IMG/VR virus record: IMGVR_UViG_3300044630_003091
Location: 1-49,308 of that record
DNA length: 49,308 nucleotides
Reading direction: 5' to 3' (one strand)
Origin: a virus
Positions 26,816 through 48,647 of the stretch are shown here, piece after piece. Made by a program: the position numbers and the translations under genes. Under the pieces are notes generated by a model. That model did not search any database. It had not been told where the DNA came from and saw only the letters and a program-made list of their open reading frames with translations. Position 1 is the stretch's first letter; each line of letters begins with the position of its first letter.

Positions 26816-26840
26816 GATAAACTCCTTCATTTTCAGTGTA

Positions 26841-32297: not shown

Positions 32298-33293
32298 ATG
32301 TTTATCGTAATAGAAGGCACAGACGCGTCAGGGAAAAGTTCACTGATCGCTGAAATACAAAAACAGCTCGGCGCAAATGTTGAGCTATTCCACAAAGGGC
32401 GGCCAGAAGTAGAGTCACGCCGCTGGGTGCTCGACGAGTATGTTATCAATGTGTCAAACAGCTACTCACTAAACAGGGATAAAGCGCACCTGTCTGATCG
32501 GTGGCATTGGGGCGAGGTAACATACGCTCCGCTAAAGCGCCCGCACACTGACACCGACGGCTTCGGTCTGCTTGGCGTGGCAGGTTGGCGCTGGGTTGAG
32601 CTGTTCTTACTGTCGCGCGGCATTACTCAATTCTGGTTATACCAGCCTTTAGACGTTATTTCCCAAAGACTACAAGATCGTGGTGACGATTTTGTCAGTG
32701 TTGATGAGCTAAGTCAGATATTAGACAACTACACAAAGGCATCTAAAGAAACAGCATCATGTCTTACTCTCTGCCCAGACGGCGATAGTTTTTCTGCGCT
32801 GCCAGAGCTTGCAGCCTCTGTAATTCGCATTGCTCGTGAGCGCGAGCAAGAAGCTAATAAACTTTCAAAGCACGTTGGATACATTGGAAGCCCCAACCCG
32901 CAGGTACTCTTAGTTGGAGATAAAAGGAACGATAAGACTGTAACTAGTCTCCCGTTTATGCCAGTAGACAGCAACTCTGGCGACTACCTATTATCATGCC
33001 TGCCCGATCCATTCTGGAAAACTATCGGAATCGTCAACGGCGACGACATTAACGGAAAGCCGCTGCAGCTACTGTGGCAAGCGCTAGGCTACCCAAGAAT
33101 TGTTGCTCTTGGTCGAATGGCTGAAAAATTTCTAAAGATCAGCGGATTTACAGATGCCGACTACAACGTAGTTCCGCATCCGCAATACGTGCGCAGATTT
33201 CATCACAATGACCGTATGGAGTACGGCATGGCGATAGAAAGACTCTCAAAACAAACAACAGAACAACAGGGAGAACCATGGACACTTCGCTAA
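32298..33293 (+). CDS. dTMP-kinase-like P-loop domain fused to a uracil-DNA-glycosylase-like domain
   Basis: A 331-residue protein. The first about 190 residues are a thymidylate/deoxynucleoside-monophosphate kinase: P-loop EGTDASGKSS, the DR motif in LSDRWHWGEVTY, and a lid region with RLQDRGDDF. Residues about 200-331 resemble the uracil-DNA glycosylase superfamily: VLLVGDKRND, LPFMPVDSNSGDYLL, IGIVNGDDING, RIVALGRMAEKFL and VVPHPQYVRRFHH. The kinase would feed dNTP synthesis; the second domain may only keep the fold, since a clear catalytic motif is not visible. The gene overlaps the next by 16 nt and begins the nucleotide-metabolism operon. The fold of the C-terminal domain is inferred. 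Confidence 0.72.
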   Translation: MFIVIEGTDASGKSSLIAEIQKQLGANVELFHKGRPEVESRRWVLDEYVINVSNSYSLNRDKAHLSDRWHWGEVTYAPLKRPHTDTDGFGLLGVAGWRWVELFLLSRGITQFWLYQPLDVISQRLQDRGDDFVSVDELSQILDNYTKASKETASCLTLCPDGDSFSALPELAASVIRIAREREQEANKLSKHVGYIGSPNPQVLLVGDKRNDKTVTSLPFMPVDSNSGDYLLSCLPDPFWKTIGIVNGDDINGKPLQLLWQALGYPRIVALGRMAEKFLKISGFTDADYNVVPHPQYVRRFHHNDRMEYGMAIERLSKQTTEQQGEPWTLR

Positions 33294-34144
33294 AGCAGAT
33301 CAACATCGAAGACGGTGTAAATGGTTATGTGGATCTAGTGCAACACGTGCTGAAGCACGGCGAGCCAGCAGCGCCAAAAGGCATCAACACCCGTGAGATT
33401 GAAGACGCTGTCATTACTATCGACAACGTCTATGCAACTCTGCCGATTGGTGTCAATCGAGGCACGGTGCCAGGAATTGGCGCTGTTGAAGCTTGTCAAC
33501 TTATATCTGGTCTTAGCACGCCTGAGCTTGTCGTTGGTATCGGGCCACAGTTTGAGAACTATACTGAAGATGACGGTAAGTTCCACGGCTCATACGGGAC
33601 ACGTACGCGCGGACAATACAACGTTGTAGTCGATCGTCTGCGCAAGGACCCAGACACACGCCAAGCTGTTGTCACAATGTGGAGTCCGCCCCTTGACATG
33701 CTTGAAAAGAAGCGCGACTACCCTTGCACGATCTTGCATCAATTTCGTATTCGCAAAGACAAGCTCAACATGAGCGTGTACATGCGATCGAACGATGTGT
33801 GGCTTGGCGCAGCGTACGATTTTTTTCAGTTCACACGCGTCCAACTAGGACTCTGCTCAATTCTTGGAATTGAACCTGGAACATACGCTCATCATGTTGG
33901 ATCACTGCACATCTATGAAAACAACTACGAGGCAGCAGAAAATCTTAAAAAGACCTCGAACATTTTTGTGCCGCCTGTTCTTACAGGGCGCACATGGGAC
34001 GAGCTTGCCGCATCTGCTGGGTTTGCGTTGCACGCTGCAGAAGATCGCACGTTGGTAGAGTTCTTAACAGAAGAAGAGAGTTGGTTTACATCATCAATGA
34101 CTAAAGCTGTTGACAAGAACAATGAGAGAAAGACTGGACAATGA
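33278..34144 (+). CDS. Thymidylate synthase-fold enzyme, probably dCMP-specific (methylase or hydroxymethylase)
   Basis: ATG with GGGAG ribosome site; 288 residues. The TS fold is clear: HGSYGTRTR, QAVVTMWSPP, catalytic Cys150 in DYPCTI, MRSNDVWLGAAYDFFQF, and HIY with His211 and Tyr213. In thymidylate synthases the segment RSxDxxLGxPFN ends in Asn (Asn177 in E. coli), which reads dUMP. Here the same position is Asp181. Aspartate at this site is the hallmark of dCMP-specific members such as T4 dCMP hydroxymethylase, and swapping Asn to Asp in TS shifts preference to dCMP. The likely substrate is therefore dCMP, with a methyl or hydroxymethyl product. Its neighbours are a dNMP kinase and dCMP deaminase. 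Substrate assignment is inference from this residue. Confidence 0.8.
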   Translation: MDTSLKQINIEDGVNGYVDLVQHVLKHGEPAAPKGINTREIEDAVITIDNVYATLPIGVNRGTVPGIGAVEACQLISGLSTPELVVGIGPQFENYTEDDGKFHGSYGTRTRGQYNVVVDRLRKDPDTRQAVVTMWSPPLDMLEKKRDYPCTILHQFRIRKDKLNMSVYMRSNDVWLGAAYDFFQFTRVQLGLCSILGIEPGTYAHHVGSLHIYENNYEAAENLKKTSNIFVPPVLTGRTWDELAASAGFALHAAEDRTLVEFLTEEESWFTSSMTKAVDKNNERKTGQ

Positions 34145-34326
34145 GTCAAGATGATTTTGACTATTCATCGCCAATGCAGGAAGCTGCTGTTGCGATGCAT
34201 GAAATGTATGAAACGCTAAAGCGCGCTGGATTTAGCCGCCGTGAAGCGCTAGAGCTCGTTGCAAAAATGATGACGTCATCAATAGCAGAAGTCTTAGGTA
34301 ACTCTGACGACGACGATGATGAGTGA
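34141..34326 (+). CDS. Small hypothetical protein
   Basis: A 61-residue acidic helical protein overlapping the previous stop (ATGA) and the following start. Contains AAVAMHEMYETLKRAGFSRREALELVAKMM, written here only as the region 12-43, and ends in a run of aspartates. Small proteins of this kind are common in actinophages between TS-like and dCMP deaminase genes; function unknown. Confidence 0.6.
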   Translation: MSQDDFDYSSPMQEAAVAMHEMYETLKRAGFSRREALELVAKMMTSSIAEVLGNSDDDDDE

Positions 34327-34804
34327 TCCACGCCCATCGTGGGACGAAACGTGGCTAACTGTAGCTGATGTAATCAGCAAGCGGTCGAGATGTTCTCGCG
34401 CGCAAATGGGTGCGGTAATTGTCTCTAAGGACAATCATGTTGTCGCAACTGGCTACAATGGTCCTGCCGCTACGTGGCCAGAATCTGGCGAATGCATTAA
34501 CTGGTGTGAACGCGCAAAAGGCGAGACAGGATTAGGCACCGCGTACACTGGTTGTCCAGCGATCCACGCTGAAGCAAACGCACTTTTGTACGTTGATAGA
34601 TCGCAAAGCCTTGGCGGGACAATTTATATTGTCAGTCCACCGTGCGACCAGTGCGCGAAACTAATATCTAACTCTGGTCTTGCTCGTGTTGTGTGTAGAA
34701 TTAGCGAAGCTGATATGCATCGCAATCCATACCAGGTAATTGAGTATCTCAATATGTGCGGCATCGAAGTGATAATTATTGGAGAACATAATGACAACAA
34801 CTGA
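34316..34804 (+). CDS. dCMP deaminase
   Basis: A 162-residue zinc-dependent deaminase of the cytidine/deoxycytidylate family. Zinc site: HAE in CPAIHAEANALLY and PPCDQC further on; the glutamate is the proton shuttle. Also typical are RSRCSRAQMGAVIV near the start and VATGYNG. It converts dCMP to dUMP, and so competes for the same substrate as a dCMP-specific TS-fold enzyme, or supplies dUMP for dTMP. Two adjacent ATGs (34316, 34319) are possible starts, both inside the end of the preceding gene; it overlaps the polymerase start by 14 nt. Confidence 0.88.
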   Translation: MMSDPRPSWDETWLTVADVISKRSRCSRAQMGAVIVSKDNHVVATGYNGPAATWPESGECINWCERAKGETGLGTAYTGCPAIHAEANALLYVDRSQSLGGTIYIVSPPCDQCAKLISNSGLARVVCRISEADMHRNPYQVIEYLNMCGIEVIIIGEHNDNN

Positions 34805-36614
34805 TCTTTCTAATGTGCAGCTTCATTTAGTTGATAGTGCAGAAAAGGCGACTCAATTTCTTGAATGGTTGAGTGAGCGTAGGCCGCACAACGCTATCTC
34901 AGTCGATACTGAGACCGGCGAGCTACCTGGTAATCCACGCGACCATGCGTTTTCGCCTTGGCATGGTCAACTGCGCCTTGCACAGGTTGGCGACGGACAA
35001 CAAGGCTGGTCGATCCCATGGGACGAGTGGAAGGGCGTCTTCTACGAAGCCATGGACAAGTTCGATGGCCCAATCATCTGCCATAACATTGCGTTCGAGG
35101 CTCGCTGGTTTGCTGTCCAGTCTCGTTGGGAATTGCCTTGGCACCGTGCGCACGACACAATGATCATGTCGCACATCATTGATCCACTAGGCTCTGGCGC
35201 TTTGAAGCGACTTGCGGCATTGCATATTGATAGCCGTGCAGTTGCATTGCAAGAAACGCTCGACACGGAACTTGCTAAGAACGGCTGGACATGGGGAACT
35301 GTTCCAGTAAACTTCCAACCGTATTGGTCATACGGTGCGCTTGACTGCGTGCTTACAACTCGCCTATGGGAAATGTTCTACGAAAAATGCGGACCAGATG
35401 GTCCGTACCATAAGCCGTACGAGCTTGAAATGGCGACGCGCCGCATCGTCACTCGAATGGAGCTCAACGGCGCACGTATCGACCTTGACTACTCAAAGAA
35501 AAAATTCGATGAACTTACAGCGTATAGCGATTCAGTAAAGACATGGGCCAAGCAGCAGTATAGCGGTGTCTCAATCACGAGTAACCAGCAGCTCGTACGT
35601 TTGTTCGAAAGCATCGGCGCTGAAATTACGGAGTTCACTCCAACAGGACAAAAGTCATGCACAAAAGATCAGCTAAAGATGCTGATGATTACTGGCACAG
35701 ACGAAGTAAAGAATCTTGCTGACACTGTTCTTAAACAGCGTAAGGCAGACAAACTTGCTAATACATATTTCTCTAACTTTCTTACCGGCTCAATTGACGG
35801 AATCGTCCACCCATCTGTCCGTACGCTTGGCGCACGTACAAGCCGCATGTCGATTACAAACCCGGCACTTCAGACTCTGCCTAAAGGTGACAACGTTGTT
35901 CGTAGCGCGTTTATTCCTAAAGACGATGATCACGTCATTGTCACAAGTGACCTTGATCAAGTTGAGTTCCGTATGTTCGCCAGCCTTTCACAAGACGCAA
36001 ACTTAGTGCAGTTGTTCCACCTAGCTGATGCAACAGGATCTGATCCGTTTACCGAGATTGGTCGTGAGGTATATGCTGACCCAGACATGCAAAAGTCTGA
36101 TAAGCGCCGTGGTCTTATCAAAAGTATGATCTACGGCCGACTCTATGGCGCCGGTGTCGCGAAGCAGGCACTCACCGCTGGCGTGCATGAGGCTCAAATG
36201 AAAGGCACGTCTGACGCATTCGACAATAGATTCCCTGGAATGACATTGTTCCAGCGTCAAATTGAAGACGCTGGTATGCGCCGCGTCAGAGCCGAAGGCC
36301 AAGGCTACGTATACACATGGACCGGGCGCCGTATTCCTTGTGATGAAAATCGTGTATACACTCTGGTTAATTACCTAATTCAAGGTGGTGCTGCTGAAGT
36401 GTTCAAGAGTAATCTTGTAAAGCTTGATCAAGCCGATCTAACAGAATTGTTGATTGTGCCTGTGCATGACGAAATTGTTCTCAACGCTCCACGCAAGGAC
36501 GCTGAAGAAATCAAGAAACTAGTTAAGGAATGTATGACAACAACTGAAGGCTGGTCAGTGCCACTTACTGCAGACGTCGATGGTCCGCTTGAAAATTGGG
36601 GAGATAAGTACTAA
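34791..36614 (+). CDS. DNA polymerase, family A, with 3'-5' exonuclease domain
   Basis: Start ATG 34791 has GGAG six bases upstream; an in-frame TTG at 34779 lacks one. The 607-residue enzyme has Exo I (SVDTETG), Exo II (CHNIAFEARW), Exo III (YGALDCVLTTRLW), and polymerase motifs A (TSDLDQVEFRMFASLS), B (KRRGLIKSMIYGRLYG) and C (VPVHDEIVL). Exo II has Glu103 where most family members have Asp. At the position of E. coli Phe762, in motif B, this enzyme has Tyr448, as in T7 polymerase; this residue class is linked to virulent, fast-replicating phages. Length is that of phage PolA without the 5' nuclease domain. It overlaps both neighbours, in a replication operon. Confidence 0.95.
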   Translation: MTTTDLSNVQLHLVDSAEKATQFLEWLSERRPHNAISVDTETGELPGNPRDHAFSPWHGQLRLAQVGDGQQGWSIPWDEWKGVFYEAMDKFDGPIICHNIAFEARWFAVQSRWELPWHRAHDTMIMSHIIDPLGSGALKRLAALHIDSRAVALQETLDTELAKNGWTWGTVPVNFQPYWSYGALDCVLTTRLWEMFYEKCGPDGPYHKPYELEMATRRIVTRMELNGARIDLDYSKKKFDELTAYSDSVKTWAKQQYSGVSITSNQQLVRLFESIGAEITEFTPTGQKSCTKDQLKMLMITGTDEVKNLADTVLKQRKADKLANTYFSNFLTGSIDGIVHPSVRTLGARTSRMSITNPALQTLPKGDNVVRSAFIPKDDDHVIVTSDLDQVEFRMFASLSQDANLVQLFHLADATGSDPFTEIGREVYADPDMQKSDKRRGLIKSMIYGRLYGAGVAKQALTAGVHEAQMKGTSDAFDNRFPGMTLFQRQIEDAGMRRVRAEGQGYVYTWTGRRIPCDENRVYTLVNYLIQGGAAEVFKSNLVKLDQADLTELLIVPVHDEIVLNAPRKDAEEIKKLVKECMTTTEGWSVPLTADVDGPLENWGDKY

Positions 36615-37090
36615 TGAAAAGATTGATTATCGCAGTTGATCCAGGTAAGGCTAGCGGCATATGCGCGTTCACTATCGAGTCTGGTGATGCCAACCCTGAG
36701 TTAATTATGTCTGGAGAATACCAACCAGAGGAGTACGCTACGCCAATACGCGAACTTATTAAGAGTGCGATCGACAATGGCTATGTGCTCGCTGTGACAT
36801 GTGAGCGATTCATAATCAATGCTCAGACAGCTAAAAACTCACAAGCTCCGTATTCTCTCGAACAAATAGGTGTTTTGAAGCAGATTCTTAGAGATTTTGG
36901 TTATTCTGATTCAGAATTAAAGTATCAAAGCCCATCAGACGCTAAAAGAATGTTCGGAAATGATGCGCTTAAGACACTAGGGTATTGGCACAAGGGCGGC
37001 GGTGGGCACGCTTTAGACGCGATTAGGCACGGTTTATTATATTTAGCCAAGAATGGATGGACGCCTCTAAAGCTCCTCGAAAGGTACTAA
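36614..37090 (+). CDS. RuvC-like Holliday junction resolvase
   Basis: Start overlaps the polymerase stop (TAATG). The 158-residue protein has the RNase H-like resolvase core: AVDPGKASG with the first Asp, CERFII with the central Glu, and HALDAIRHGLLYL with the last acidic residue and adjacent His. The size fits phage RuvC-type nucleases that resolve branched replication intermediates before packaging. Confidence 0.82.
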   Translation: MKRLIIAVDPGKASGICAFTIESGDANPELIMSGEYQPEEYATPIRELIKSAIDNGYVLAVTCERFIINAQTAKNSQAPYSLEQIGVLKQILRDFGYSDSELKYQSPSDAKRMFGNDALKTLGYWHKGGGGHALDAIRHGLLYLAKNGWTPLKLLERY

Positions 37091-37100
37091 GAAAAATATT

Positions 37101-37120
37101 TGTGCGCTTGCGCGCATTTT
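37101..37120 (+). terminator. Probable Rho-independent terminator
   Basis: TGTGCG (37101-37106) pairs with CGCGCA (37111-37116) through one G-U, loop CTTG, followed directly by TTTT. Ends the polymerase/resolvase transcript. Confidence 0.5.
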
Positions 37121-37131
37121 GACTTAGTACA

Positions 37132-37140
37132 TGATACAGT
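37132..37140 (+). promoter_or_regulatory. Extended -10-like motif TGATACAGT
   Basis: TGRTANNNT class, 29 nt before the GTG start at 37170 and just after the terminator hairpin, so it would restart transcription for the helicase operon. Confidence 0.42.
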
Positions 37141-37169
37141 GACATATAACGAAACGACAAGAGGTAAAC

Positions 37170-38957
37170 GTGCCAGTATCCGTAGACTTAACTACAGACG
37201 GTAAATACATTAGAATCGACACGGAGTGGCGATTCAAAGAGCTATGTAAGACAATTCCAGGTGCAACGTGGAATGCTTCAGAAAAAGCATGGAAGGCTCC
37301 ACTAGGCTGGGCAACATGTTTAGCCTTGCGTTCTGTATTCAAGAACGATCTTGAGATTGGTCCGCGGCTTGGAGCGTGGGCAGCTAATGAGCTTGCCACC
37401 CGAGTTACTCCTGCAAACGATCTTCGCGATCTAGAAGACTACGAAGGTGACGAAAAGCTGTTTCCTCATCAACGTGCCGGTGTTGCATTTCTTTCTACCG
37501 CACGTCGCGCTCTCCTCGCCGATGAACCAGGACTCGGTAAGACCGCACAGACGATTCGTGCGCTAAGGTACATCCATGAGACTGAGGACAGCGTATTTCC
37601 TACGCTTATCACCTGCCCCAACACGCTGAAGAAAAACTGGCAGCGTGAATTTACAATGTGGTGGCCAGAAGCAAACGTTCAGGTAATTAGTGGATCAGCA
37701 GTTCAGCGCCGTAAGCAGTTTGACGCTGGCGCAGATGTCTACGTCATTAACTGGGAATCCCTACGTTCACATTCGCGCCTTGCGCCGTACGGATCAGTCG
37801 CGCTTACACGATGTGTCGCGTGTGGTGGCCATGATGAAAAGATCAGCGAAAATCGCTGCGAAGTTCATGTCCGTGAGCTAAATGAAATAGACTTTAAGGC
37901 AGTAGTCGCAGACGAAATTCACCGCTCAAAGGAACCTAAATCAAAACAGACTCGTGCTCTTTGGGCAGCAACTGGTGACGCAGACATTCGTTTTGCTCTT
38001 ACAGGCACACCCATTGCGAACAACGTGCTCGATCTTTGGTCGATTCTTCACTGGCTGTCGCCGACTGAATGGCCAAGCAAGACACGCTGGATTGATCGCA
38101 TGGTCGACACTATGATGAATGCCTTTGGCGGCATGATTGTTCTTGGTGTTAAGCCTCACATGCAAGAAGAGTTTTACGCAACTATCAATCCACGTATGCG
38201 TCGCATGCTCAAGGCTCGCGTGCTGCCTTGGTTGCCGCCAGTCATGAAAGAGCGCCGTGACGTAGAAATGTCGACAAAGCAGCGCAAGGCGTATGAACAA
38301 ATGCGCGATCTAATGATCGCAGAAATTGAAGGTGGCGGAGCTGTTACAGCGCCAAGCGCACTGACGCAGACGACGCGCTTGTTGCAGTTTGCTAACTCGT
38401 TTGCTGAGTCGCACTTGGTTGACGAATTCACTGGCGAAACCAAGGTGATATTGGCTGCGCCATCGTGCAAGGTCGACGCACTTATGGACGACATCAAGAG
38501 TGGTGACTTTGGTGATGACTCAGTAGCTGTCTGCGCAGTATCTCGTCAGCTTATTGAGTTACTCAGCACAGAAATGACAAAGGCCAGCATTCCCCACGGA
38601 CTAATCACTGGTGCGCAAAACGAAGACGAACGCCAGCAAGCTGTTGATGATTTTCAGTCAGGCAAGATCAAATGGATCTTGTTCACAGCTCAAGCGGGTG
38701 GTGTTGGTATTACATTGACCGCCGCCCGTCGCATGGTGATGCTTCAGCGCCCGTGGTCACTTGTTGACTACAAGCAAGCACTAGATCGTGTACACCGTAT
38801 CGGTAGCGAGATCCATGACTCGATCACAATCATTGACTACGTCACTGATGGCACCATCGAAGAACGCGTAATTGACGTTCTCGACTCAAAGGCTGAAAGC
38901 TTCGAGCAAATCGTAAAAGACAAAGAAAAATTGCTTGCAATTATCAAAGGAAAGTAA
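37170..38957 (+). CDS. SNF2-family DNA helicase/translocase (HARP/SMARCAL1-like)
   Basis: GTG start with AGAGGTAA upstream. The 595-residue protein has a short N-terminal HARP-like segment (about 10-70: TEWRFKELCKTIPGATWN, WKAPL) then SF2 motifs: DEPGLGKTAQ (Walker A), ADEIH (Walker B), ALTGTPIANN (III), and in the second lobe AQAGGVGITLTAA and RPWSLVDYKQALDRVHRIG (V and VI). A CxxC and H-containing insertion (CVACGG...CEVH) interrupts lobe 1 and may bind zinc. Proteins of this type anneal or remodel DNA forks; here it would assist replication or recombination with the nuclease that follows. Confidence 0.9.
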   Translation: MPVSVDLTTDGKYIRIDTEWRFKELCKTIPGATWNASEKAWKAPLGWATCLALRSVFKNDLEIGPRLGAWAANELATRVTPANDLRDLEDYEGDEKLFPHQRAGVAFLSTARRALLADEPGLGKTAQTIRALRYIHETEDSVFPTLITCPNTLKKNWQREFTMWWPEANVQVISGSAVQRRKQFDAGADVYVINWESLRSHSRLAPYGSVALTRCVACGGHDEKISENRCEVHVRELNEIDFKAVVADEIHRSKEPKSKQTRALWAATGDADIRFALTGTPIANNVLDLWSILHWLSPTEWPSKTRWIDRMVDTMMNAFGGMIVLGVKPHMQEEFYATINPRMRRMLKARVLPWLPPVMKERRDVEMSTKQRKAYEQMRDLMIAEIEGGGAVTAPSALTQTTRLLQFANSFAESHLVDEFTGETKVILAAPSCKVDALMDDIKSGDFGDDSVAVCAVSRQLIELLSTEMTKASIPHGLITGAQNEDERQQAVDDFQSGKIKWILFTAQAGGVGITLTAARRMVMLQRPWSLVDYKQALDRVHRIGSEIHDSITIIDYVTDGTIEERVIDVLDSKAESFEQIVKDKEKLLAIIKGK

Positions 38958-38961
38958 ATAA

Positions 38962-39924: not shown

Positions 39925-39926
39925 CA

Positions 39927-40700
39927 ATGTCAGCAGTACAGCGTTCACTAACTATCATGGTCTATGGCGAGTCAAAGGTTGGTAAATCGACCTTCGCCGT
40001 CACAGCACCATATCCACGCCTTATGCTTGACGTTGAGGGCGGACATAGATTCCTCCCTATCAACGTTAAGTATTGGGATCCACTCCGCGAGGAACCGCCA
40101 GCAGCTGACGGCACTTGGGATACATGCGTAGTCAACGTTACTGACTACGACACTGTTCTCAAGGCGTATCAGTGGCTGCAGATCGGCAAACACCACTTTA
40201 AGTCATTGATCATTGACTCAGTATCTGAGCTTCAAGTAAAATGCGTTGACAACATTGCAGGTAAGAACCAGATGCAAATGCAACAATGGGGCGAGCTTCT
40301 TCGCCACATGGGAGCACTGCTTCGCGATCTTCGCGACTTGACAATGCACGCAACAAATCCTCTTGAGGCTGTAGTTCTTACAGCAATGGCACGTCAAAGC
40401 CCGGATGGTCGCTACCGTCCGTACCTTCAGGGACAGCTTGCAATTCAAGCGCCGTATTTCTATGACATTCTCGGCGCAATTAGCGTTGAAGAATTTCCAA
40501 ACCCAGACCCAACACAGCCGCCTTACAAGGCACGTCGTATGTACGTTGAGCGTACACCGATGTACGAAGCAGGCGAGCGTGTGCAGGGTCGCCTGGGCAA
40601 GATCGTTGAGCAACAACACCTCGGTATCGAGGCGATGCTTGACCAAGTTTTCGGACCACGTCCGGAAAATAAAACCACAACCAAGACAGAAGGAAAGTAA
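39927..40700 (+). CDS. RecA-like AAA ATPase (Sak4-like recombinase)
   Basis: A 257-residue P-loop ATPase: VYGESKVGKST (Walker A), SLIIDSVSEL (Walker B), and a sensor-like region VVLTAMARQ. Phage proteins of this size and motif set, beside a RecB-like nuclease and an SSB-like gene, are Sak4-type single-strand-binding recombinases. No DnaB helicase motifs are seen. Operon partner of the nuclease and the SSB-like protein. Confidence 0.8.
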   Translation: MSAVQRSLTIMVYGESKVGKSTFAVTAPYPRLMLDVEGGHRFLPINVKYWDPLREEPPAADGTWDTCVVNVTDYDTVLKAYQWLQIGKHHFKSLIIDSVSELQVKCVDNIAGKNQMQMQQWGELLRHMGALLRDLRDLTMHATNPLEAVVLTAMARQSPDGRYRPYLQGQLAIQAPYFYDILGAISVEEFPNPDPTQPPYKARRMYVERTPMYEAGERVQGRLGKIVEQQHLGIEAMLDQVFGPRPENKTTTKTEGK

Positions 40701-40703
40701 GCC

Positions 40704-41246
40704 ATGAGCACACTAAACTGGGGAGACCTAGTCAAAGAAGCCGGTGATGTAGCGAGTTATGACCCGCTCCCAGACGGTGACTACGAGCTGCAAATTATTG
40801 AAGCAGTAGCAAAGACCACGCAGAACGGTAAGACAATGTTCGCCGTAAAAGCGCAAGTTACAGTCGGTGCGCACGCAAAGCGCCTCGTATGGGACAACCT
40901 CGTTGTGTCAACTGATAACCCAACAGCACTTGGAATCTTTTTCCGCAAGATGAATTCTCTTGGTCTTGGCCAGGAATACTTTGCAACAAATCCATCCAAC
41001 GCACAAATTGAGCAGACACTTCGCGGTCGTAATTTCCGCGCACAGGTTGGCTCACGCGTATGGCAGGGTCAAAAGAAGAATGAGATCAAGGCGTACTACT
41101 CGGCTGGCGCATCTGCTGCCACAGCAGCACCTGCTCCAGTGGCAGCACCCGCTCCGGCGCCTGCACCCGCTCCTGCACCTGCACCTGCTCCAGTGGCAGC
41201 ACCTGCACCTGCAGCAACAGACACGCCACCTGCAGCGCCGTTCTAA
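40704..41246 (+). CDS. SSB-like protein (DUF669-like) with Pro-Ala tail
   Basis: A 180-residue protein starting four nucleotides after the ATPase. Residues about 18-130 form an OB-fold-like region (LPDGDYELQIIEAV, TMFAVKAQVTVG, LVWDNLVVS, LRGRNFRAQVG). A long low-complexity Ala-Pro tail (about 138-172) links it to a C-terminal tip ending in AAPF. A flexible linker plus a final Pro-Phe is how SSB proteins recruit partners. Binding of single-stranded DNA during replication is inferred from the layout and neighbours. Confidence 0.7.
   Translation: MSTLNWGDLVKEAGDVASYDPLPDGDYELQIIEAVAKTTQNGKTMFAVKAQVTVGAHAKRLVWDNLVVSTDNPTALGIFFRKMNSLGLGQEYFATNPSNAQIEQTLRGRNFRAQVGSRVWQGQKKNEIKAYYSAGASAATAAPAPVAAPAPAPAPAPAPAPAPVAAPAPAATDTPPAAPF
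41122..41218 (+). repeat. Short-period Ala-Pro coding repeat
   Basis: Alternating GCA/GCT-CCT/CCC-type codons encode the Pro-Ala linker of the SSB-like protein. The tract is a slippage-prone near-microsatellite and its length is likely variable among relatives. Confidence 0.6.
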
Positions 41247-41273
41247 TCGGCGAATTACCACACTGACGCTTCA

Positions 41274-41313
41274 GCGGAGGGCCTCTGTTTAGGAAACTAA
41301 ACACGCCCTCCGC
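41274..41313 (+). terminator. Strong two-part hairpin between replication and glycosyl operons
   Basis: GCGGAGGGC (41274-41282) pairs perfectly with GCCCTCCGC (41305-41313). Inside, GTTTAG/CTAAAC (41287-41302) encloses a GAAA tetraloop. No U-run follows, but the stem is the most stable intergenic structure in the window and lies just before a promoter-like element, so it probably ends the replication transcript. Confidence 0.55.
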
Positions 41314-41323
41314 GTTGCTCCTG

Positions 41324-41332
41324 TGGTATCAT
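41324..41332 (+). promoter_or_regulatory. Extended -10-like motif TGGTATCAT
   Basis: TGRTANNNT class, 35 nt before the ATG at 41368 that starts the glycosyl operon. Confidence 0.45.
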
Positions 41333-41367
41333 TCATAACACGCACGACGCATAGGAGATTGACGCGA

Positions 41368-42606
41368 ATGAAAGTCGCTATTTTAGAGCCGGAGCCGGGA
41401 GTAAAGGGCCCAACAGCATGGGCGTTTCGGCTTAAGCATGGATTTATCGGACTAGGTCATGAATGTGACGTAGTTTCGTATACAAAAAGTGGAAAATCAC
41501 GTAAGGCTTGGGGAACACCACAGCCTGGCGCTCGCTGGTGGAGCGAGGCCCCCAACGTAGTTGTAAAAACTGAAAACATTGTAGAAGTACTCGATTCATA
41601 TGACATGATCGTTCTTCCAGAAATTAAGATTCCGCAGCACGACAAGATTGCATTAAAAGCCGGAGAAGGTGTTCTCCCAGAGTATGTTGACGCGCTGCGC
41701 AGAACAAAGACGCCTTGGACTACAGCTCTTCATGGTTCTTTTTACCCAGGTAAAGATATTCCATTTGTTCCGCAACTGCTCGAGTCGCCGTCACGAGGAA
41801 CGACCTTAGTGACAATGAGTGAAGACTCGGCAAACGATAGCAACGATCTTTTCAAGTCAATGAACTGGCTAAAAGGTCCAATGCCATTTATTCCACGATT
41901 CGGCATTGATGATCCGATCACTGACAACTGGACTGTCGGAACTTCTGGTCGATTTATTTATAACAAAGGCCAACCGCTTATCGCGCTCGCCGGCACTAGA
42001 CTGCCAGAGCACGTCACAGTCGAAGTGTGGGGCTCATGCTCTGTTGGCCTAGGACCATCGCCTACATTTATTGTTTATGAGATTCTAAAAGATCACTTTG
42101 GCGCTCAAGTTGCACGTCACGCCACAAACATCAATCTTTCTAAAGGTACTGATGGAAACATCATTACGCCGTACCCGTGGGACGCACGAGTTGAGGGACA
42201 CGCGCTAATTAGATACTTAGGCAACTACGTTGACTCAGCAGCTATCGCACAACGGTTTCGTGTTCATATGAACCTAACCGCCTACAACTTTGCGCGAGGG
42301 CTTGTTGAGTATTCAACGCTAGAAGCTGCTGATGCCGGGGCGCTTTGTATTGTCCCTGAGCATTTATCAGATCCACAATTCAGAATGCATGTTCTTGATT
42401 GGTACAAAGGCTGCCCAACGCAGGGACGTCTAGTGCAACCAGAAGGCCTTGAGCTGATGCAAAGAGTCGCTGACGCGTTTACAACGTGCCTTGAAGTATC
42501 AGACAAAGACCGTATGGAAATAGCTCAACACAACAGAGCGGTGCTGCGTACAAGAAATGATCCACGAAAGACCGCACAGGTAATGATTGAAAGTGCGTTC
42601 TCGTGA
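41368..42606 (+). CDS. Glycosyltransferase, GT-B type
   Basis: The ATG at 41368 (ATAGGAG ten bases upstream) is preferred to an in-frame GTG at 41323 that lies inside the promoter-like motif. About 412 residues. N-terminal Rossmann-like start MKVAILEPEPG with AWAFRLKHGFIGLGHECDVVSYT; after a linker, TVGTSGRFIYNKGQPLIALAG, VTVEVWGSC, and near the C-terminus the acceptor/donor segment NFARGLVEYSTLEAADAGALCIVPEH. This two-lobed pattern with an E-x7-type motif fits GT4-like enzymes using NDP-sugars. First gene of a run of overlapping genes for sugar activation. The acceptor is unknown. Confidence 0.78.
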   Translation: MKVAILEPEPGVKGPTAWAFRLKHGFIGLGHECDVVSYTKSGKSRKAWGTPQPGARWWSEAPNVVVKTENIVEVLDSYDMIVLPEIKIPQHDKIALKAGEGVLPEYVDALRRTKTPWTTALHGSFYPGKDIPFVPQLLESPSRGTTLVTMSEDSANDSNDLFKSMNWLKGPMPFIPRFGIDDPITDNWTVGTSGRFIYNKGQPLIALAGTRLPEHVTVEVWGSCSVGLGPSPTFIVYEILKDHFGAQVARHATNINLSKGTDGNIITPYPWDARVEGHALIRYLGNYVDSAAIAQRFRVHMNLTAYNFARGLVEYSTLEAADAGALCIVPEHLSDPQFRMHVLDWYKGCPTQGRLVQPEGLELMQRVADAFTTCLEVSDKDRMEIAQHNRAVLRTRNDPRKTAQVMIESAFS

Positions 42607-43367
42607 AAGGTCTTTCAGGCGCAGTCATCACTAATAAGCGCGATGGCACAGTTACGAAAACAGGCGGCCTTGTTGATCGAACGATCGAGCAAGGCGAGTG
42701 GATACTTCGCCATGGCGGCGACGCATTCCCTAAAAATGTAAAAATTTTAGAAGACGGCTACAGCATGGAGAGACTTGACTTCATCGAGTACTTTGACGTT
42801 GGTAGTGATTTTTCGATCGACACGCTTCGCCAAAGCGTGTGGTCTCAGCCCGCAGTAGTACCGCCGACTCGTGAGACTGTGCGTCTTCTTCAAGAAAAAA
42901 TGATGCATACGTTTGATAAGCATCTCGCAGGCACACTTGGACAAAGCGAAAAGGTTGCAATTTTAGAAGACGCAACACACGCAGGGAACGGCGCGTATAG
43001 GCTTAGGCACTGTCTAACACACGGTGATCCAACTGCAGAAAATATTATGGTTCGCCCAGGGTACGGAAAAGTATTCATTGACCCAATTCGTGCCACTGAG
43101 GTTGTCCCTGACTCGCCAGCAGTTGATGTCGGAAAGGTGCTTCAAAGCGCGTATGGCTGGGAAGATGCTAAATACGGAACTGGCATTATGGCGTACAAGC
43201 CAAGTGACATTAAGCAAGCGCTAAACGACGATGAACTGTTTGCTGTAGGAGAGTCATGGGCTGTTGTGCATGTAATGCGTGCAATTCCTTACATAGGCAG
43301 AATCATGCCTGACTCGATGGACAAAGTTGTCACCGTACTGAACAAAGCGATTGCGAGAGAACTCTGA
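42603..43367 (+). CDS. Kinase of aminoglycoside-phosphotransferase/choline-kinase fold
   Basis: GTG start overlapping the previous stop (GTGA). The 254-residue protein shows the APH-type catalytic loop LTHGDPTAENIMV, with the metal-binding Asp in FIDPIR. Flanking helices (PAVDVGKVLQSAYGWEDAKY) match this fold. Members phosphorylate small sugars, amino alcohols or choline. Beside a HAD phosphatase and nucleotidyltransferase it would phosphorylate the sugar or alcohol to be activated. The substrate cannot be read from the sequence. Confidence 0.72.
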   Translation: MKGLSGAVITNKRDGTVTKTGGLVDRTIEQGEWILRHGGDAFPKNVKILEDGYSMERLDFIEYFDVGSDFSIDTLRQSVWSQPAVVPPTRETVRLLQEKMMHTFDKHLAGTLGQSEKVAILEDATHAGNGAYRLRHCLTHGDPTAENIMVRPGYGKVFIDPIRATEVVPDSPAVDVGKVLQSAYGWEDAKYGTGIMAYKPSDIKQALNDDELFAVGESWAVVHVMRAIPYIGRIMPDSMDKVVTVLNKAIAREL

Positions 43368-43885
43368 TGAGCATATGGTGTTCTGATATTGATGGTGTTC
43401 TTATTGACTCAAAGGCGCTTGTCCGCGAGTCATATAAAGCTGTAGGAATTGACATGCCAATCGAAGCCTGGGGCCATCCGTGGCAGACGTGGCTTCCAGC
43501 GGTGGTCGGTTCACTTGAATTAGCTAAACAAATACACAACCAAAAGACAGATGCGTACATTGATGTTCTTTCGTCTGGCGTAGTGAGTGAAATCGTTCTT
43601 CCGTTTGCTCAAATTGCACGAGCGTTGGAAAGAGATCCAGTGACTAGTGTTTACTACGTAACAGGTGCGACCAAGCGTGCTGCCATAACAATTTTACGAG
43701 AGCTCGGACTTGATTCGCGTAACTTGATTGCATCAAGCGCAACTACAGCCGATCGTGAGCAATTACTAAAAAATCTTGCGCCGTCAGGCGTCTATATTGA
43801 CGATCGAATTGAAGGCCAAGCACCTGCACATGCGGCTGGTTGGAGTTTTATTTGGGCAAAACAGGATTGGTCATGGAATCAATAA
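43367..43885 (+). CDS. HAD-superfamily hydrolase
   Basis: TGATG overlap with the kinase. A 172-residue HAD enzyme: motif I DIDGVLID (nucleophile and general acid Asp), motif II Thr in YYVTGATKRAA, motif IV IDDRIEGQAPA. It lacks a large cap domain. In small sugar pathways such enzymes remove a phosphate between kinase and nucleotidyltransferase steps (as in ADP-heptose synthesis). Overlaps the next gene by 13 nt. Confidence 0.78.
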   Translation: MSIWCSDIDGVLIDSKALVRESYKAVGIDMPIEAWGHPWQTWLPAVVGSLELAKQIHNQKTDAYIDVLSSGVVSEIVLPFAQIARALERDPVTSVYYVTGATKRAAITILRELGLDSRNLIASSATTADREQLLKNLAPSGVYIDDRIEGQAPAHAAGWSFIWAKQDWSWNQ

Positions 43886-44601
43886 TTCTTGCTGCTGGCA
43901 GAGGCCAGCGAATGGAAGGGTTTGCTAAACCGTTCTTTAAGCCGTTGCTTGAAGTAAATGGTCTTCCACTCATTACTTATGCTGCTGAATACGCTTCCTC
44001 CGCTGGAGCTACCAGGGTCACTGTTGTTGCTTCTGAAAGTAACGCAGACGACATTAAGAAATCGCTAAAAATGTATGCGTCGTGGGTAGACGTAGTCATT
44101 CAGAGTGAACCTCGCGGCCCAGGCGATGCTACACTAATTGGCCTAGGCAACACAGACTGTAAGTCAGTAATGCTGCTCATGAGCGACAACCTGATGAACG
44201 CAGATGCTGTTTCACAAATGGCTATGACTGCGATGATCAATGACGCTGACGCTGTTGGCGTAGCGCGAGTGCCGTTGGAGAGAGCCGATAGATTTACACG
44301 TGTTCGCGAGTGGGAAGACGGAACTTGCACATACGTCGAAGGAGTGCCTGTTTCTGCAGAAGATGAGTCAACTGTCGGTAATGCAACAGTTTGGTGCGGG
44401 CCACTTATATTTGAGCGTGCTACAGCTATTGACGTCCTAAATAACGTGCAAGCTAGTGTCAATGCGAATACCAGTGAGTTTAAGATTGGGCCACACTTAA
44501 ATAAAATAATGCGGCTAAACACGCTGGTCGCAGATGTTGGCGCAATGGATGTTGGCATTCCTGCCGCATACATAGAACAAATAAAGAAAAACAATGACTA
44601 A
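43873..44601 (+). CDS. Sugar/alcohol-phosphate nucleotidyltransferase
   Basis: ATG 43873 gives the expected N-terminus MESIILAAGRGQRM directly; an in-frame ATG at 43840 would add eleven residues from the HAD gene frame. The 242-residue protein has the NTP-transferase signature LAAGRGQRM...KPFFKPL, SEPRGPGDATLIGLG, metal site LLMSDNL and the C-terminal GAMDVGIPAAY. It makes an NDP-sugar or CDP-alcohol. LicC-type choline cytidylyltransferases share this fold, so a CDP product is a real alternative, given the APH-fold kinase nearby. Confidence 0.82.
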   Translation: MESIILAAGRGQRMEGFAKPFFKPLLEVNGLPLITYAAEYASSAGATRVTVVASESNADDIKKSLKMYASWVDVVIQSEPRGPGDATLIGLGNTDCKSVMLLMSDNLMNADAVSQMAMTAMINDADAVGVARVPLERADRFTRVREWEDGTCTYVEGVPVSAEDESTVGNATVWCGPLIFERATAIDVLNNVQASVNANTSEFKIGPHLNKIMRLNTLVADVGAMDVGIPAAYIEQIKKNND

Positions 44602-45601
44602 AGTACTTATAACTGGAATGACTGCATCGCAGTCTTCGTCAGTCTACAGCGAGCGATCTGCTACGTTTGTTGGATCAATAGCTCGCGCACTACGCGAAAG
44701 AGGAGTTACTGTCGATTGGCAAGTTCCAAACATGGACAATCGAGAGATTATGGCGTATGACAAAGTTCTTGTGGGGATTGCTCCAGTTTTAAGTCTTGCT
44801 GCCAATAGATCGTTTAGTGCTCTTGCGCTGGTTGAGGCACTTTGGGACAGCGACAAACTCACGACGTTTATCGATGCACCTGAGCCTGGAAAAATACACG
44901 CGAGCCTACGCTCTGTAAATAAAGCGCCTGAATCTCTTACTAAGTCGCTCTACTCTAGGCGCGCAGGATACTCGGCAATCGCTACCGACAAGGCGCACGC
45001 AAGCAAGATCGCAAGAATAGTTGAAACATTGACGCATGAAAGTTGGAGAAAGACGCTAGTTCCTGTTCTTCCGTGGAGCATTGTTGACAAGTCTTTGGCA
45101 AGTCTTCCGCAAAATGTTTCTAACTCATGCGTAGGAATAAACATTGACAGTTTTATCGTAGACAAGTTACACGAAGATAGCACAACTCGCTACAACCAGT
45201 GGGTTGTAGAAAACGAAAACACCAAGTGGATTAAGAATGCAACTAAGGTACTTGTGTACCCGAGCACTCCGGCAAAGACGAAACGCGCCCAAGGTGATGC
45301 TGCAGTTCTAGAAAACATGTCTTCTTCTGCTGGAGTTCTTATTGGTCCGCACGACGATAAAGTTCTGTGGTGGTCCAGTCGATTTGCACAGGCATTGAAT
45401 ACTCGTACGCCGGTAGCGACAGAGTGGCGCGACAGCCAAGCTATTGGAGACGCCTGGTCGCACCTAGCTTCTGGCATTGAAGAAATGAATTTAGAAGACA
45501 GGTACGAGCTTTCAACTGCGCAGCGATCTCAGTATATTGAAAGCATTCCAAACAAACAACAAGTAACTGACACTCTACTCAAGGAATTAGAAATTAAATG
45601 A
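44594..45601 (+). CDS. Probable glycosyltransferase or nucleotide-sugar-acting protein
   Basis: A 335-residue protein overlapping the nucleotidyltransferase gene by 8 nt. It opens with a Rossmann-like strand (KVLITGMTASQSS), followed by VGSIARALRERGVTVDW and YDKVLVGIAPVLSLAA, which suit a GT-B first lobe. The second half (TKVLVYPSTPAKTKRAQGD, SSAGVLIGPHDD, WSSRFAQALNTRTPVATEW) has the order of a donor-binding lobe, though no diagnostic motif is seen. A glycosyltransferase role is inferred from fold-like features and context. Confidence 0.55.
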   Translation: MTKVLITGMTASQSSSVYSERSATFVGSIARALRERGVTVDWQVPNMDNREIMAYDKVLVGIAPVLSLAANRSFSALALVEALWDSDKLTTFIDAPEPGKIHASLRSVNKAPESLTKSLYSRRAGYSAIATDKAHASKIARIVETLTHESWRKTLVPVLPWSIVDKSLASLPQNVSNSCVGINIDSFIVDKLHEDSTTRYNQWVVENENTKWIKNATKVLVYPSTPAKTKRAQGDAAVLENMSSSAGVLIGPHDDKVLWWSSRFAQALNTRTPVATEWRDSQAIGDAWSHLASGIEEMNLEDRYELSTAQRSQYIESIPNKQQVTDTLLKELEIK

Positions 45602-46065
45602 AAGTACTATTCAATCGTTGGCTTGAAAAGACAAAACAACTTCAAGTCGACGTATACGGAGCAGACTACACAACGTTTCACAGCGATGGGCCAGATGATC
45701 TCAATGAATTGATTGAGTACATCCGCTGGAACATGCTCGCCATTGACGATGAACTTGCTGAGGTTCGTCAAGCTATTTCATGGAAGCCTTGGCAACACGA
45801 TGAGCCATATGCCGATCGCAAAGAAATCGTTAAAGAATGCGTAGACGTGCTTCACTTTGTCGCGAACATTCTCTGTGCTGCCGGAGCTACGGACGAAGAG
45901 CTTGATGAAGAGTACCTCAAGAAAATGCAAAAGAACGCTGATCGCCAAAAGAATGGCTATAAAGTCCTAGATCCAGGCATGAAATGCACTCGGTGTGTAC
46001 GCGCTCTTGATGACTATGATGTGGACTCGTGCCAAGACTCTCTGTGCCCCTCTAAGGGCGCGTAA
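45598..46065 (+). CDS. dUTPase/MazG-like NTP pyrophosphohydrolase with zinc-ribbon tail
   Basis: ATGA overlap with the previous gene. The 155-residue protein has the all-alpha NTP pyrophosphatase motifs: DDELAEVRQAISWKPW (ExxE) and EIVKECVDVLHFVANIL (ExxxD), like dimeric dUTPases and MazG. The C-terminus has CTRCVRALD and SCQDSLCP, a short zinc-ribbon. This class removes dUTP or dCTP; T4 gp56, which keeps unmodified dCTP out of DNA, has the same fold. That role is attractive here but unproven. Confidence 0.78.
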   Translation: MKVLFNRWLEKTKQLQVDVYGADYTTFHSDGPDDLNELIEYIRWNMLAIDDELAEVRQAISWKPWQHDEPYADRKEIVKECVDVLHFVANILCAAGATDEELDEEYLKKMQKNADRQKNGYKVLDPGMKCTRCVRALDDYDVDSCQDSLCPSKGA

Positions 46066-46307
46066 TGAGCCTATGGATTTCCGTACATGTCCGCAACGTG
46101 CTGCCAGGAGACGTCGTTAGAGTGCGAGAGAACGCATATAGCGGCAACACTGGCGCAATGCACAATGGACGTATATGTGAAGTACTACTTGTCCGTGGCG
46201 GTGACGTAGTTGTCAAATCAGTCGACGGAAAACACCCTGTACTAGAAAAGACATACCACTCTCCAGCAGTTTTAGAGAAAGAAGTACTTGATGAGATTGT
46301 CAATTGA
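46065..46307 (+). CDS. Small beta-rich hypothetical protein
   Basis: TAATG overlap with the upstream stop. The 80-residue protein has VLPGDVVRVRENAYSG, AMHNGRICEVLLVRGGDVVVKSVDG, a KOW/SH3-like barrel pattern seen in small actinophage proteins. Function unknown. Confidence 0.62.
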   Translation: MSLWISVHVRNVLPGDVVRVRENAYSGNTGAMHNGRICEVLLVRGGDVVVKSVDGKHPVLEKTYHSPAVLEKEVLDEIVN

Positions 46308-46503
46308 AATAAGTGTGACGGGATCTACATTAGACGAGATTATGTCTAGTGCAGTTGCTGAATGGAACAAGCTGTCTCAGTCTGATTCACAAGTTCTTCC
46401 ATCTGGGTCAGAAATTGATGTAGTCCCAAACGACGGTGCTACGCGCCCAGGACTGTACACGGCTCGTGTCTTTATTAGGACGAAAGTAGAAGATAATGTC
46501 TGA
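46291..46503 (+). CDS. Small hypothetical protein
   Basis: ATG 46291 lies within the end of the preceding gene; an adjacent TTG is also possible. About 70 residues, beginning MRLSIEISVTGSTLDEI and ending GLYTARVFIRTKVEDN, a strand-helix-strand pattern. Stop overlaps the next start. No function recognised. Confidence 0.55.
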   Translation: MRLSIEISVTGSTLDEIMSSAVAEWNKLSQSDSQVLPSGSEIDVVPNDGATRPGLYTARVFIRTKVEDNV

Positions 46504-46792
46504 CAAAGAAAAATTGCCACGCCAGCAAATGCTTGAAGAAGCCTCTGGCATTATTTCGGGTCAGCGCGACGAGCAGTATGGCAAGCCAGAAGATAACTTC
46601 GGGCGAATTGCTAAGATTTGGTCTGTGATTCTTGGAATAGACATTTCAACAGAAGACGTGGCTATGCTAATGGTAGGTCTTAAAGTTGCGCGCTACGTAA
46701 ACAAGTCTGGATTCCAAGGAGACACTTGGGTCGACATCGCCGGGTACGCGGCATGTGGATATGAAGTTGGAATTAAAGATACGCGGCAATAA
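46496..46792 (+). CDS. DUF6378-like phage protein
   Basis: A 98-residue helical protein with ISGQRDEQYGKPEDNFGRIAKIW, ISTEDVAMLMVGLKVARYVN and WVDIAGYAACGYE, the typical pattern of a widespread small phage family (DUF6378). The Glu/Asp residues resemble a reduced MazG-like helix bundle, but no enzyme activity is known to me. It ends the glycosyl operon. Confidence 0.75.
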   Translation: MSDKEKLPRQQMLEEASGIISGQRDEQYGKPEDNFGRIAKIWSVILGIDISTEDVAMLMVGLKVARYVNKSGFQGDTWVDIAGYAACGYEVGIKDTRQ

Positions 46793-48143: not shown

Positions 48144-48647
48144 ATGCAATCGTTTCTTATTACGCCGTCCTCATTTGAGGAAACGTCGCGCCTTCTCGAC
48201 AACAAGCGCCTGCATAAGCAGACTCTCGAAGCATGGCAGTGCCTTATGGTTATGGCTAAGCTCGACAAAGAAGGCAACTACCGCGAACCCAAAGGCTGGG
48301 TCAATCACCCGGTAGTCAAAATGTGGCGTGGCCACGAGACGCTATTTGTCTCGTATATCAGCGCTACATACTTTGAGTGGCGCTCTCGTGGCTATAAATC
48401 TACTCTTCTTGATAAGACGTACGCCACATATGATCTAGGGGTCAAGCTTGGCACTATCAACGGTGAAATGAGCATGCCCAACTGGATGGCCGATACGGAA
48501 TACTATGAGCGCCTGTGCTCTACGCACCGGACAGCGCTTCTTTGTAAAAACTACGAGTGGTATTCTAAATTCGGCTGGGTCGAAGATCCAGGCACAGCGC
48601 CGCTTACCTATGAGTATGTATGGCCTCACCAGGATGGCTACGTCTAG
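48144..48647 (+). CDS. Pyrimidine-dimer DNA glycosylase (DenV-like family)
   Basis: A 167-residue protein with ATG after AAGGACC. It shows the family pattern: SFLITPSSFEETSRLLDNKRLHKQ, WVNHPVVKMWRGHE, YISATYFEWRSRG, and CSTHRTALLCKNYEWY. These enzymes repair UV-induced dimers, fitting a phage exposed to sunlight in surface water. The exact bifunctional glycosylase/lyase chemistry of the T4 enzyme is not proven here, as the N-terminal Thr2 nucleophile of DenV is Gln2. Confidence 0.75.
   Translation: MQSFLITPSSFEETSRLLDNKRLHKQTLEAWQCLMVMAKLDKEGNYREPKGWVNHPVVKMWRGHETLFVSYISATYFEWRSRGYKSTLLDKTYATYDLGVKLGTINGEMSMPNWMADTEYYERLCSTHRTALLCKNYEWYSKFGWVEDPGTAPLTYEYVWPHQDGYV

Follow-up and report, generated by a model that had tools for sequence, protein, structure and literature searches.

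A Putative T4-Like Cytosine-Modification Pathway with an Exchangeable Sugar Cassette in a Freshwater Phage of Actinobacteria

Genes of the Locus

We analyzed a window of 49,308 nt (the whole stretch of DNA examined), for which a preliminary description had proposed a T4-like modified-cytosine pathway at positions 32298–46792. The genes it listed there (a dNMP kinase, a TS-fold enzyme, a dCMP deaminase, a dCTPase/dUTPase-fold enzyme, two glycosyltransferases, and sugar-activating genes) are all present as intact open reading frames (table 1). Direct nucleotide comparison of the locus with known phages gave no match. The order and content of the module are found again in dozens of contigs, as well as in independent cultured phages, and the arrangement is therefore not due to chance.

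Table 1. Features of the Proposed Cytosine-Modification Locus and Its Surroundings
Feature	Position	Strand	Evidence
TMK-like P-loop kinase, proposed hmdCMP kinase	32298..33293	+	PHROG 761 thymidylate kinase, E = 1e-15
Asp-type TS-fold enzyme, proposed dCMP hydroxymethylase	33278..34144	+	PF00303, E = 1.5e-23
dCMP deaminase	34316..34804	+	PF00383, E = 3e-18; PHROG 174, E = 1e-42
DNA polymerase A, replication core (context)	34779..36614	+	PF00476, E = 4e-55
DUF669 protein, left edge of variable cassette	40704..41246	+	PF05037
gt1, GT-B, GT4-like glycosyltransferase	41323..42606	+	AlphaFold and Foldseek; GRFIYNKG and LEAADAG motifs
APH-fold kinase, proposed sugar kinase	42603..43367	+	PF01636, E = 1e-5; HGDxxxEN and IDP motifs conserved
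HAD phosphatase, proposed sugar-phosphate phosphatase	43367..43885	+	PF00702, E = 0.004; DIDG, TGA, and DD motifs invariant
Sugar-1-phosphate nucleotidylyltransferase	43840..44601	+	PF12804/PF00483; NCBIfam and PDB sugar nucleotidyltransferases
gt2, second GT-B glycosyltransferase	44594..45601	+	AlphaFold, pLDDT 92.7; Foldseek
dUTPase_2/gp56-type all-alpha NTP pyrophosphohydrolase, proposed dCTPase/dUTPase	45598..46065	+	PF08761, E = 1.5e-11
C5-cytosine methyltransferase, conserved module partner	46840..48081	+	PF00145, E = 9e-20

The T4 equivalents proposed for these genes held in part. Sequence comparison of the pyrophosphohydrolase with T4 gp56 (26% identity over 136 aa, E = 5e-11) indicates that it is a predicted dCTPase related to the T4 enzyme. 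The likeness of the kinase to T4 gp1 was rejected, as no blastp similarity was detected and the profile match had E = 0.073 with a negative score. The dCMP deaminase corresponds to T4 cd, but its role would be to supply dUMP, not to build hydroxymethylcytosine (hmC) itself. The kinase reading frame overlaps the start of the TS-fold gene, and its C-terminal domain is conserved and may be UDG-superfamily-like in sequence (PF03167, E = 0.012, a match seen in a single relative).

The TS-Fold Enzyme

The best PDB match of the TS-fold protein is the CMP hydroxymethylase MilA of mildiomycin biosynthesis (E = 2e-18), which is also its closest solved structure by sequence. Multiple alignment revealed that E40, R128, D147, C150, T151, S171, and D181 are invariant among scorable relatives (66–69 of 70 distinct sequences). 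D181, which occupies the position of Asn177 in E. coli TS and Asp179 in T4, is found in 69/69 of them, so the label "Asp-type" was correct; environmental phage DNA with modified cytosine has likewise been linked to TS with Asp at 177 (PMC8670742). D147 stands three residues ahead of the catalytic C150 (the pair is present in 68/68) and corresponds to T4 Asp145, which separates hydroxymethylases from TS, where Leu is found (PMC6400193). MilA shares both Asp residues, at the base-recognition site and three before Cys, but prefers CMP, with Ala176 and Lys133. The window protein carries the dCMP-type Arg and Ser (R128 in 68/68 and S171 in 69/69), the dCMP-preferring states of MilA K133R/A176S (PMC5175136). 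T151 (E. coli TS position 147) and E40 (T4 Glu60) do not vary in scorable relatives either.

Judged from the alignment, the protein thus has the residue state published for dCMP hydroxymethylases at every position but one, that of T4 Ser94. Ser94 is important in the T4 dCMP hydroxymethylase, and Ser (or Thr) is reported to be strongly conserved across the family. Gly104 is found at this position in 67/68 sequences, in a stretch that is poorly aligned between branches, and MilA also departs from Ser although it is a proven hydroxymethylase. Taken at face value, the glycine counts against a hydroxymethylase. Similarity to T4 gp42 is limited to the C-terminal half (30% identity over 125 aa), which would place the enzyme outside the gp42 subfamily if close full-length similarity is taken as its mark. 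The C-terminal tail of TS is unrecognizable in the alignment.

Glycosyltransferases and Sugar-Activation Genes

Neither gt1 nor gt2 was assigned to a Pfam family at the threshold used. Profile searches against PDB gave no useful match for either protein, and their structures were therefore predicted. Both models have a GT-B fold, which bears out their earlier description as likely glycosyltransferases. The gt1 model (pLDDT 75.6; the start is probably at 41368, as in relatives) has GT4 enzymes as its top Foldseek matches and also matches T4 alpha-glucosyltransferase (E = 1e-8); many of the GT4 enzymes that its fold matches do not act on DNA. On this model, gt1 is the best candidate for an hmC transferase. 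As gt1 was not found in bacterial genomes, it provides no host assignment. The gt2 model matches SenB (E = 8e-6) and a glycosyltransferase of phage HY126 (E = 2e-4), on which a literature search returned nothing relevant; a gt2 homologue is present in Gordonia phage Phendrix (E = 6e-22).

The three genes between gt1 and gt2 resemble, by analogy, the MupP–AmgK–MurU salvage route, which also combines a HAD phosphatase, a sugar kinase, and a nucleotidyltransferase. The MurU model gives a weak match to the nucleotidyltransferase (E = 4e-9). The APH kinase and HAD protein match AmgK and MupP at the superfamily level only; neither was assigned to a specific family or matched a sugar kinase of solved structure. 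The one PDB match of the HAD protein is weak (carbohydrate phosphatase TM1254, E = 0.014).

The content of this cassette differs among relatives. DSL-LC01 has a glycosyltransferase, a UDP-galactopyranose mutase, and gt2 in place of the five genes found here, and other relatives have two transferases alone. The three sugar-activation genes are present in 21/21 complete cassettes whose gt1 has an identity of about 73% or above, and in 0/9 with the divergent gt1. The sugar-making genes are thus a cassette exchanged among related phages, each of which may wear a different DNA sugar.

Distribution among Related Phages

Co-occurrence across actinophages, which had been suggested as a check, showed that the suite (hydroxymethylase, kinase, dCMP deaminase, dCTPase-like enzyme, and first-slot glycosyltransferase) is jointly present or jointly absent by lineage. 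The freshwater clade and lineage L199 have it, as do Micrococcus phage Kurnik and the Gordonia phages GodonK, Sixama, and GMA2. It is missing from those Microbacterium and Arthrobacter phages, and from a sister clade (G002/G003), that share the replication genes. Two phages with the replication core but without the suite, Microbacterium phage Pumpernickel and phage Mimi, carry ThyX. Within a clade such co-occurrence is weak evidence, because many relatives share their genome by descent. In GodonK, Sixama, and GMA2, the TS and the glycosyltransferase cassette lie in separate operons, yet both are present. First-slot transferases (gt1 or gtA) lie between DNA-replication genes and the dCTPase and were found only alongside the hydroxymethylase.

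Kurnik has the same operon, including a gt1 homologue, and its TS slot is occupied by a relative of T4 gp42 (51% identity, E = 2e-75) that falls inside the gp42 subfamily. This gene displacement, as read from sequence similarity, supports a hydroxymethylase role for the TS-fold protein. Two Kurnik proteins of ~250 aa were wrongly taken as APH kinase and nucleotidyltransferase; one matches glycosyltransferase family 25 (E = 0.003), and both resemble a GodonK protein.

The sister clade has lost gt1/gtA, dCTPase, deaminase, and kinase together with the TS-fold gene but has kept gt2. A glycosyl operon without an Asp-type TS had been named as evidence against the pathway; that situation exists for gt2, whose retention counts in part against it, and not for gt1/gtA.

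Discussion

The published residue tests, the displacement in Kurnik, and the joint presence and absence across lineages back the proposed modified-cytosine pathway. The region is likely to be a pre-replicative cytosine-modification pathway, and this freshwater phage of actinobacteria probably has genes to replace cytosine by hydroxymethylcytosine and to coat it with sugar, like T4. GC content was uninformative as a sign of modified cytosine, as module-less control phages have similar values. TET-based hypermodification was rejected, as no TET/JBP dioxygenase (PF12851) was found in five related genomes; the C5-methyltransferase is present.

What we observed are the genes, their residues and predicted folds, their joint presence and loss, and the swapping of the cassette; each enzymatic step, DNA as the acceptor, the sugar, and the degree of cytosine replacement are inferred. 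In the proposed scheme, the gp56-type enzyme would convert dCTP to dCMP (and dUTP to dUMP), the Asp-type enzyme would hydroxymethylate dCMP, and the linked kinase and host kinases would carry the product towards hm-dCTP for incorporation by PolA, with surplus dCMP passing to dUMP via the deaminase. After replication, gt1 would move a sugar onto the hydroxymethyl group in DNA. The HAD phosphatase, APH kinase, and nucleotidyltransferase would provide its NDP-sugar (from sugar-phosphate through sugar and sugar-1-phosphate), and gt2 would add a second sugar or serve another acceptor.

The T4 pathway shares the dCMP hydroxymethylase, gp56-related dCTPase, dCMP deaminase, dNMP-type kinase, and two GT-B transferases, one of which, AGT, is among the many GT4 folds that the gt1 model resembles. 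Besides its distant TS-fold enzyme and a kinase not recognizably similar to gp1, the window phage differs from T4 in its PolA and Sak4-like replication, its own sugar-activation genes, and its conserved C5-methyltransferase. RB69 (arabinosyl-hmC) and Shewanella phage Thanatos (pentosylated cytosine) encode nucleotidyltransferase and phosphotransferase domains analogous to those of the window phage (PMC12838424, PMC6024577) and likewise combine a hydroxymethylase-type enzyme with phage functions for an unusual NDP-sugar. These functions are partly fused there (ORF53_52c/TH1_060), whereas separate APH, HAD, and nucleotidyltransferase genes are found here; lineage and hosts also differ. Thanatos TH1_060/063 showed no DNA glycosylation in vitro (PMC12838424), which by analogy may count against DNA glycosylation here.

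A different outcome, which we consider unlikely, is that the phage makes hmC while its glycosyltransferases target a virion protein, the host surface, or another metabolite, leaving bare hmC in DNA. The gt2 orthologue kept without a TS-fold gene and the GT4 enzymes without a DNA acceptor that gt1 resembles would fit this, as would serotype conversion, which the GMA2 authors mention among other possible functions of phage transferases (PMC4524720). The position of gt1/gtA and its restriction to hydroxymethylase-bearing phages argue for DNA instead.

It is less probable still that the TS-fold enzyme is a methylase yielding 5-methyl-dCMP, with unrelated transferases. A dCMP methylase has reportedly been found in phage Xp12. 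Asp at 177 alone leads to dCMP methylation in TS mutants, according to work cited in PMC8670742. The invariant D147, tied to hydroxylation, the lack of a recognizable TS tail, and the gp42-type replacement in Kurnik all point away from methylation. Equally improbable is that the genes serve ordinary nucleotide metabolism, with a dTMP-making TS alongside the kinase, deaminase, and a dUTPase, and that the neighboring operon is an unrelated one for surface glycans: such genes are common in phages and the relatives are annotated as thymidylate synthase, thymidylate kinase, and dUTPase, but Asp181 and Asp147 never vary, the glycosyltransferase cassette tracks TS even across separate operons, and module-less relatives use ThyX.

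The C5-methyltransferase also counts against a modified-cytosine pathway, since it makes little sense if every cytosine is replaced. At E ≤ 1e-20, its only INPHARED matches are 15 actinophage records of the same type. A tentative idea, somewhat less likely to be right than wrong, is that an old actinophage hmC module changes its sugar coat by cassette swap, in a manner like antigen switching (galactofuranose in DSL-LC01, given its UDP-galactopyranose mutase, and here a phage-made NDP-sugar produced through the HAD, APH, and nucleotidyltransferase genes), and that the methyltransferase has a dedicated function in hmC DNA.

To our knowledge, confirmed glycosylated-hmC systems are mostly from phages of Gram-negative bacteria, and no report of one in actinophages was found in the literature searched. 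The module is homologous, with differing glycosyltransferase content and placement, in Gordonia phages GodonK, Phendrix, Sixama, GMA2, and Forza, Kurnik, and DSL-LC01, for which the same literature held no report of modification chemistry. If our reading is right, a base modification is predicted in named cultured phages and would be directly testable, and several uncharacterized candidate DNA glycosyltransferases and sugar-activation routes may be of use as reagents. These phages would also offer a natural experiment, in which exchange of the DNA sugar cassette leaves the replication genes in place; host restriction and CRISPR presumably supply the selective pressure.

Layout of the rightward operon

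The IMG/VR virus record of the window is linear (49,308 bp), and its right part is a single rightward operon in which every gene of the T4-like modified-cytosine set claimed by the preliminary description was located. It opens with genes for a kinase, a thymidylate synthase (TS) fold, dCMP deaminase, PolA, a RuvC-like protein, an SNF2 helicase, a PD-(D/E)XK nuclease, a Sak4-like AAA protein and DUF669. A cassette of two glycosyltransferases, gt1 and gt2, flanking a proposed sugar kinase (APH), phosphatase (HAD) and nucleotidylyltransferase (NTase) follows, and beyond it are dUTPase_2 (the proposed dCTPase) and small genes, DUF6378 among them. A C5-methyltransferase and a pyrimidine-dimer glycosylase come next, and the end is WhiB-like.

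Coordinates of features in the window and in phage DSL-LC01 (L082)
Feature	Source	Position	Remark
Protein among the tail genes	window	24035-25855	fibronectin-like repeats and cysteine-rich segment
Two genes	window	25857-26830	minus strand; family unknown; break otherwise rightward order
Kinase	window	32298-33293	
TS-fold enzyme	window	33278-34144	proposed dCMP hydroxymethylase
gt1	window	41323-42606	
gt2	window	44594-45601	
dUTPase_2	window	45598-46065	proposed dCTPase
C5-cytosine methyltransferase	window	46840-48081	
Pyrimidine-dimer glycosylase	window	48144-48647	T4 endonuclease V-type; PF03013
UDP-galactopyranose mutase	L082	28963-30060	within cassette

The TS-fold enzyme and gene DISPLACEMENT in the Kurnik slot

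The top solved relative of the window TS is the CMP hydroxymethylase MilA (E=2e-18), which outranks every thymidylate synthase. It is known that cytosine is selected by Asp at E. coli position 177, and that modified DNA of environmental phages is associated with TS having this Asp (PMC8670742). Hydroxymethylases and TS are told apart three residues before the catalytic Cys (Asp vs. Leu), and D145N abolishes T4 gp42 activity (PMC6400193). Ser and Arg at MilA positions 176 and 133 go with preference for dCMP over CMP (PMC5175136). Among 70 distinct TS relatives, counting those having a residue at the position, D181 and S171 (69/69 each), D147, C150, T151 and R128 (68/68 each) and E40 (66/66) are invariant. 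By these published residue tests the window TS is a putative dCMP hydroxymethylase, the sole apparent miss being the T4 Ser94 position, with which Gly is aligned.

The operon is kept in the cultured Micrococcus phage Kurnik, with most genes 30-49% identical and a gt1 homologue (33%) downstream of DUF669. In the TS slot, however, Kurnik encodes a T4 gp42 relative (51% identity) with the same Asp. Because two TS-superfamily branches, both Asp-type, occupy one slot, the sequences are strong evidence that the job of this slot is dCMP hydroxymethylation.

The proposed pathway is predicted to work as in T4, with partly different members: the dCTPase is related to gp56, whereas the hydroxymethylase belongs to another branch than that of T4 and the kinase cannot be recognised as a gp1. 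At its C-terminus the kinase carries a conserved domain of ~130 aa, not seen in Kurnik or Gordonia phage GodonK, with a possible likeness to uracil-DNA glycosylases (PF03167, E=0.012, L032 only).

The C5-methyltransferase retains the catalytic PC motif, with ENV altered to E[CS]V. Nearly every lineage with TS also has this gene alongside the module; a 121-kb genome that carries TS gave no match to it, and in INPHARED (E<=1e-20) it is restricted to 15 records of these phages. It would be hard to square with full replacement of cytosine.

Distribution of the module

The 72 fetched loci with genes for polymerase, DUF669 and dUTPase all carry gt1 or its alternative, gtA, as first-slot transferase, and 62 of them carry TS; gene lists of the other 10 begin at or past the TS position. 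This co-occurrence is weak alone, since the loci were not reduced to contigs and most come from one clade; lineages that are independent carry more weight. In L199, where most genes are 38-49% identical, TS, gt1, dCTPase and methyltransferase are all present. In the Gordonia phages GodonK, Sixama and GMA2, the Asp-type TS has an operon apart from that of gtA, a gt1-like GT-B, gt2, dCTPase and methyltransferase, which lies past a tRNA cluster. One subclade (L102, L126, L131 and L136) has a 347-aa family 2 glycosyltransferase gene inserted between TS and deaminase (PF13704, E=5e-14 in L102).

Microbacterium phage Pumpernickel (polymerase 58%, AAA 65% identical to the window) is nearer in replication genes than Kurnik or the Gordonia phages. 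It has ThyX, no TS match and no gtA, and a collection search found no gt1, gt2 or methyltransferase; Arthrobacter phage Mimi shows the same pattern. Records of the sister clade (L211-L221; polymerase 76%, AAA 80%), which may be fragments, have no kinase, TS, deaminase, first-slot transferase, dCTPase, methyltransferase or dimer glycosylase at the corresponding places, and the whole record of a 127-kb member gave no match to PF00303, ThyX, TET, PF00145, deaminase, dCTPase, gt1 or gtA. Where the region is covered, the TS place is taken in all except L211 by an Anp1-like protein of 277-281 aa; in L213-L221 this GT-A protein lies between the 31777-like gene and polymerase, the site of kinase, TS and deaminase in the window.

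This clade retains gt2. The preliminary description held that related phages with the glycosyl operon but no Asp-type TS would refute the pathway; such a case was found for gt2 but not for gt1 or gtA. As the clade lacking both first-slot transferase and TS keeps gt2, gt1/gtA are tied to the putative hydroxymethylase, and gt2 not strictly so.

The glycosyltransferases (TRANSFERASES) and their sugar

The gt1 model (pLDDT 75.6) is GT4-like, and its top structural matches include DNA-bound T4 alpha-glucosyltransferase (E=1e-8) alongside enzymes with other acceptors. The gt2 model (pLDDT 92.7) resembles SenB and a phage HY126 glycosyltransferase. Complete cassettes are of five types: gtA+gt2, gt1+APH+HAD+NTase+gt2, gt1+gt2, gt1 alone, and gtA+UDP-galactopyranose mutase+gt2.

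Of the 30 gt1 cassettes that are complete, 21 include APH-HAD-NTase, each with gt1 at least ~73% identical to the window; none of the nine with gt1 at most 57% identical does. DNA identity between the window and L202 is 64-86% in the core and 83-96% at ~41.95-44.63 kb, and gt2 just past 44.63 kb is not alignable. This fits a block from mid-gt1 to the NTase end having moved as a single piece, which supports gt1 and its donor genes as a functional unit. In GT-B enzymes the donor is bound by the C-terminal half, so the breakpoint within gt1 may be meaningful.

In RB69 and Thanatos, nucleotidyltransferase and phosphotransferase domains go with pentosylated cytosine (PMC6024577, PMC12838424). The HAD, kinase and NTase also parallel MupP-AmgK-MurU, in chemical logic only (PMC5371407 for MupP). 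A mutase is likewise present in L058; that of DSL-LC01 was considered by its authors to act on the host wall (PMC10611076). Its placement between the two transferases of the cassette suggests instead that it supplies UDP-galactofuranose for DNA, and that galactofuranose would be the DNA sugar of this phage.
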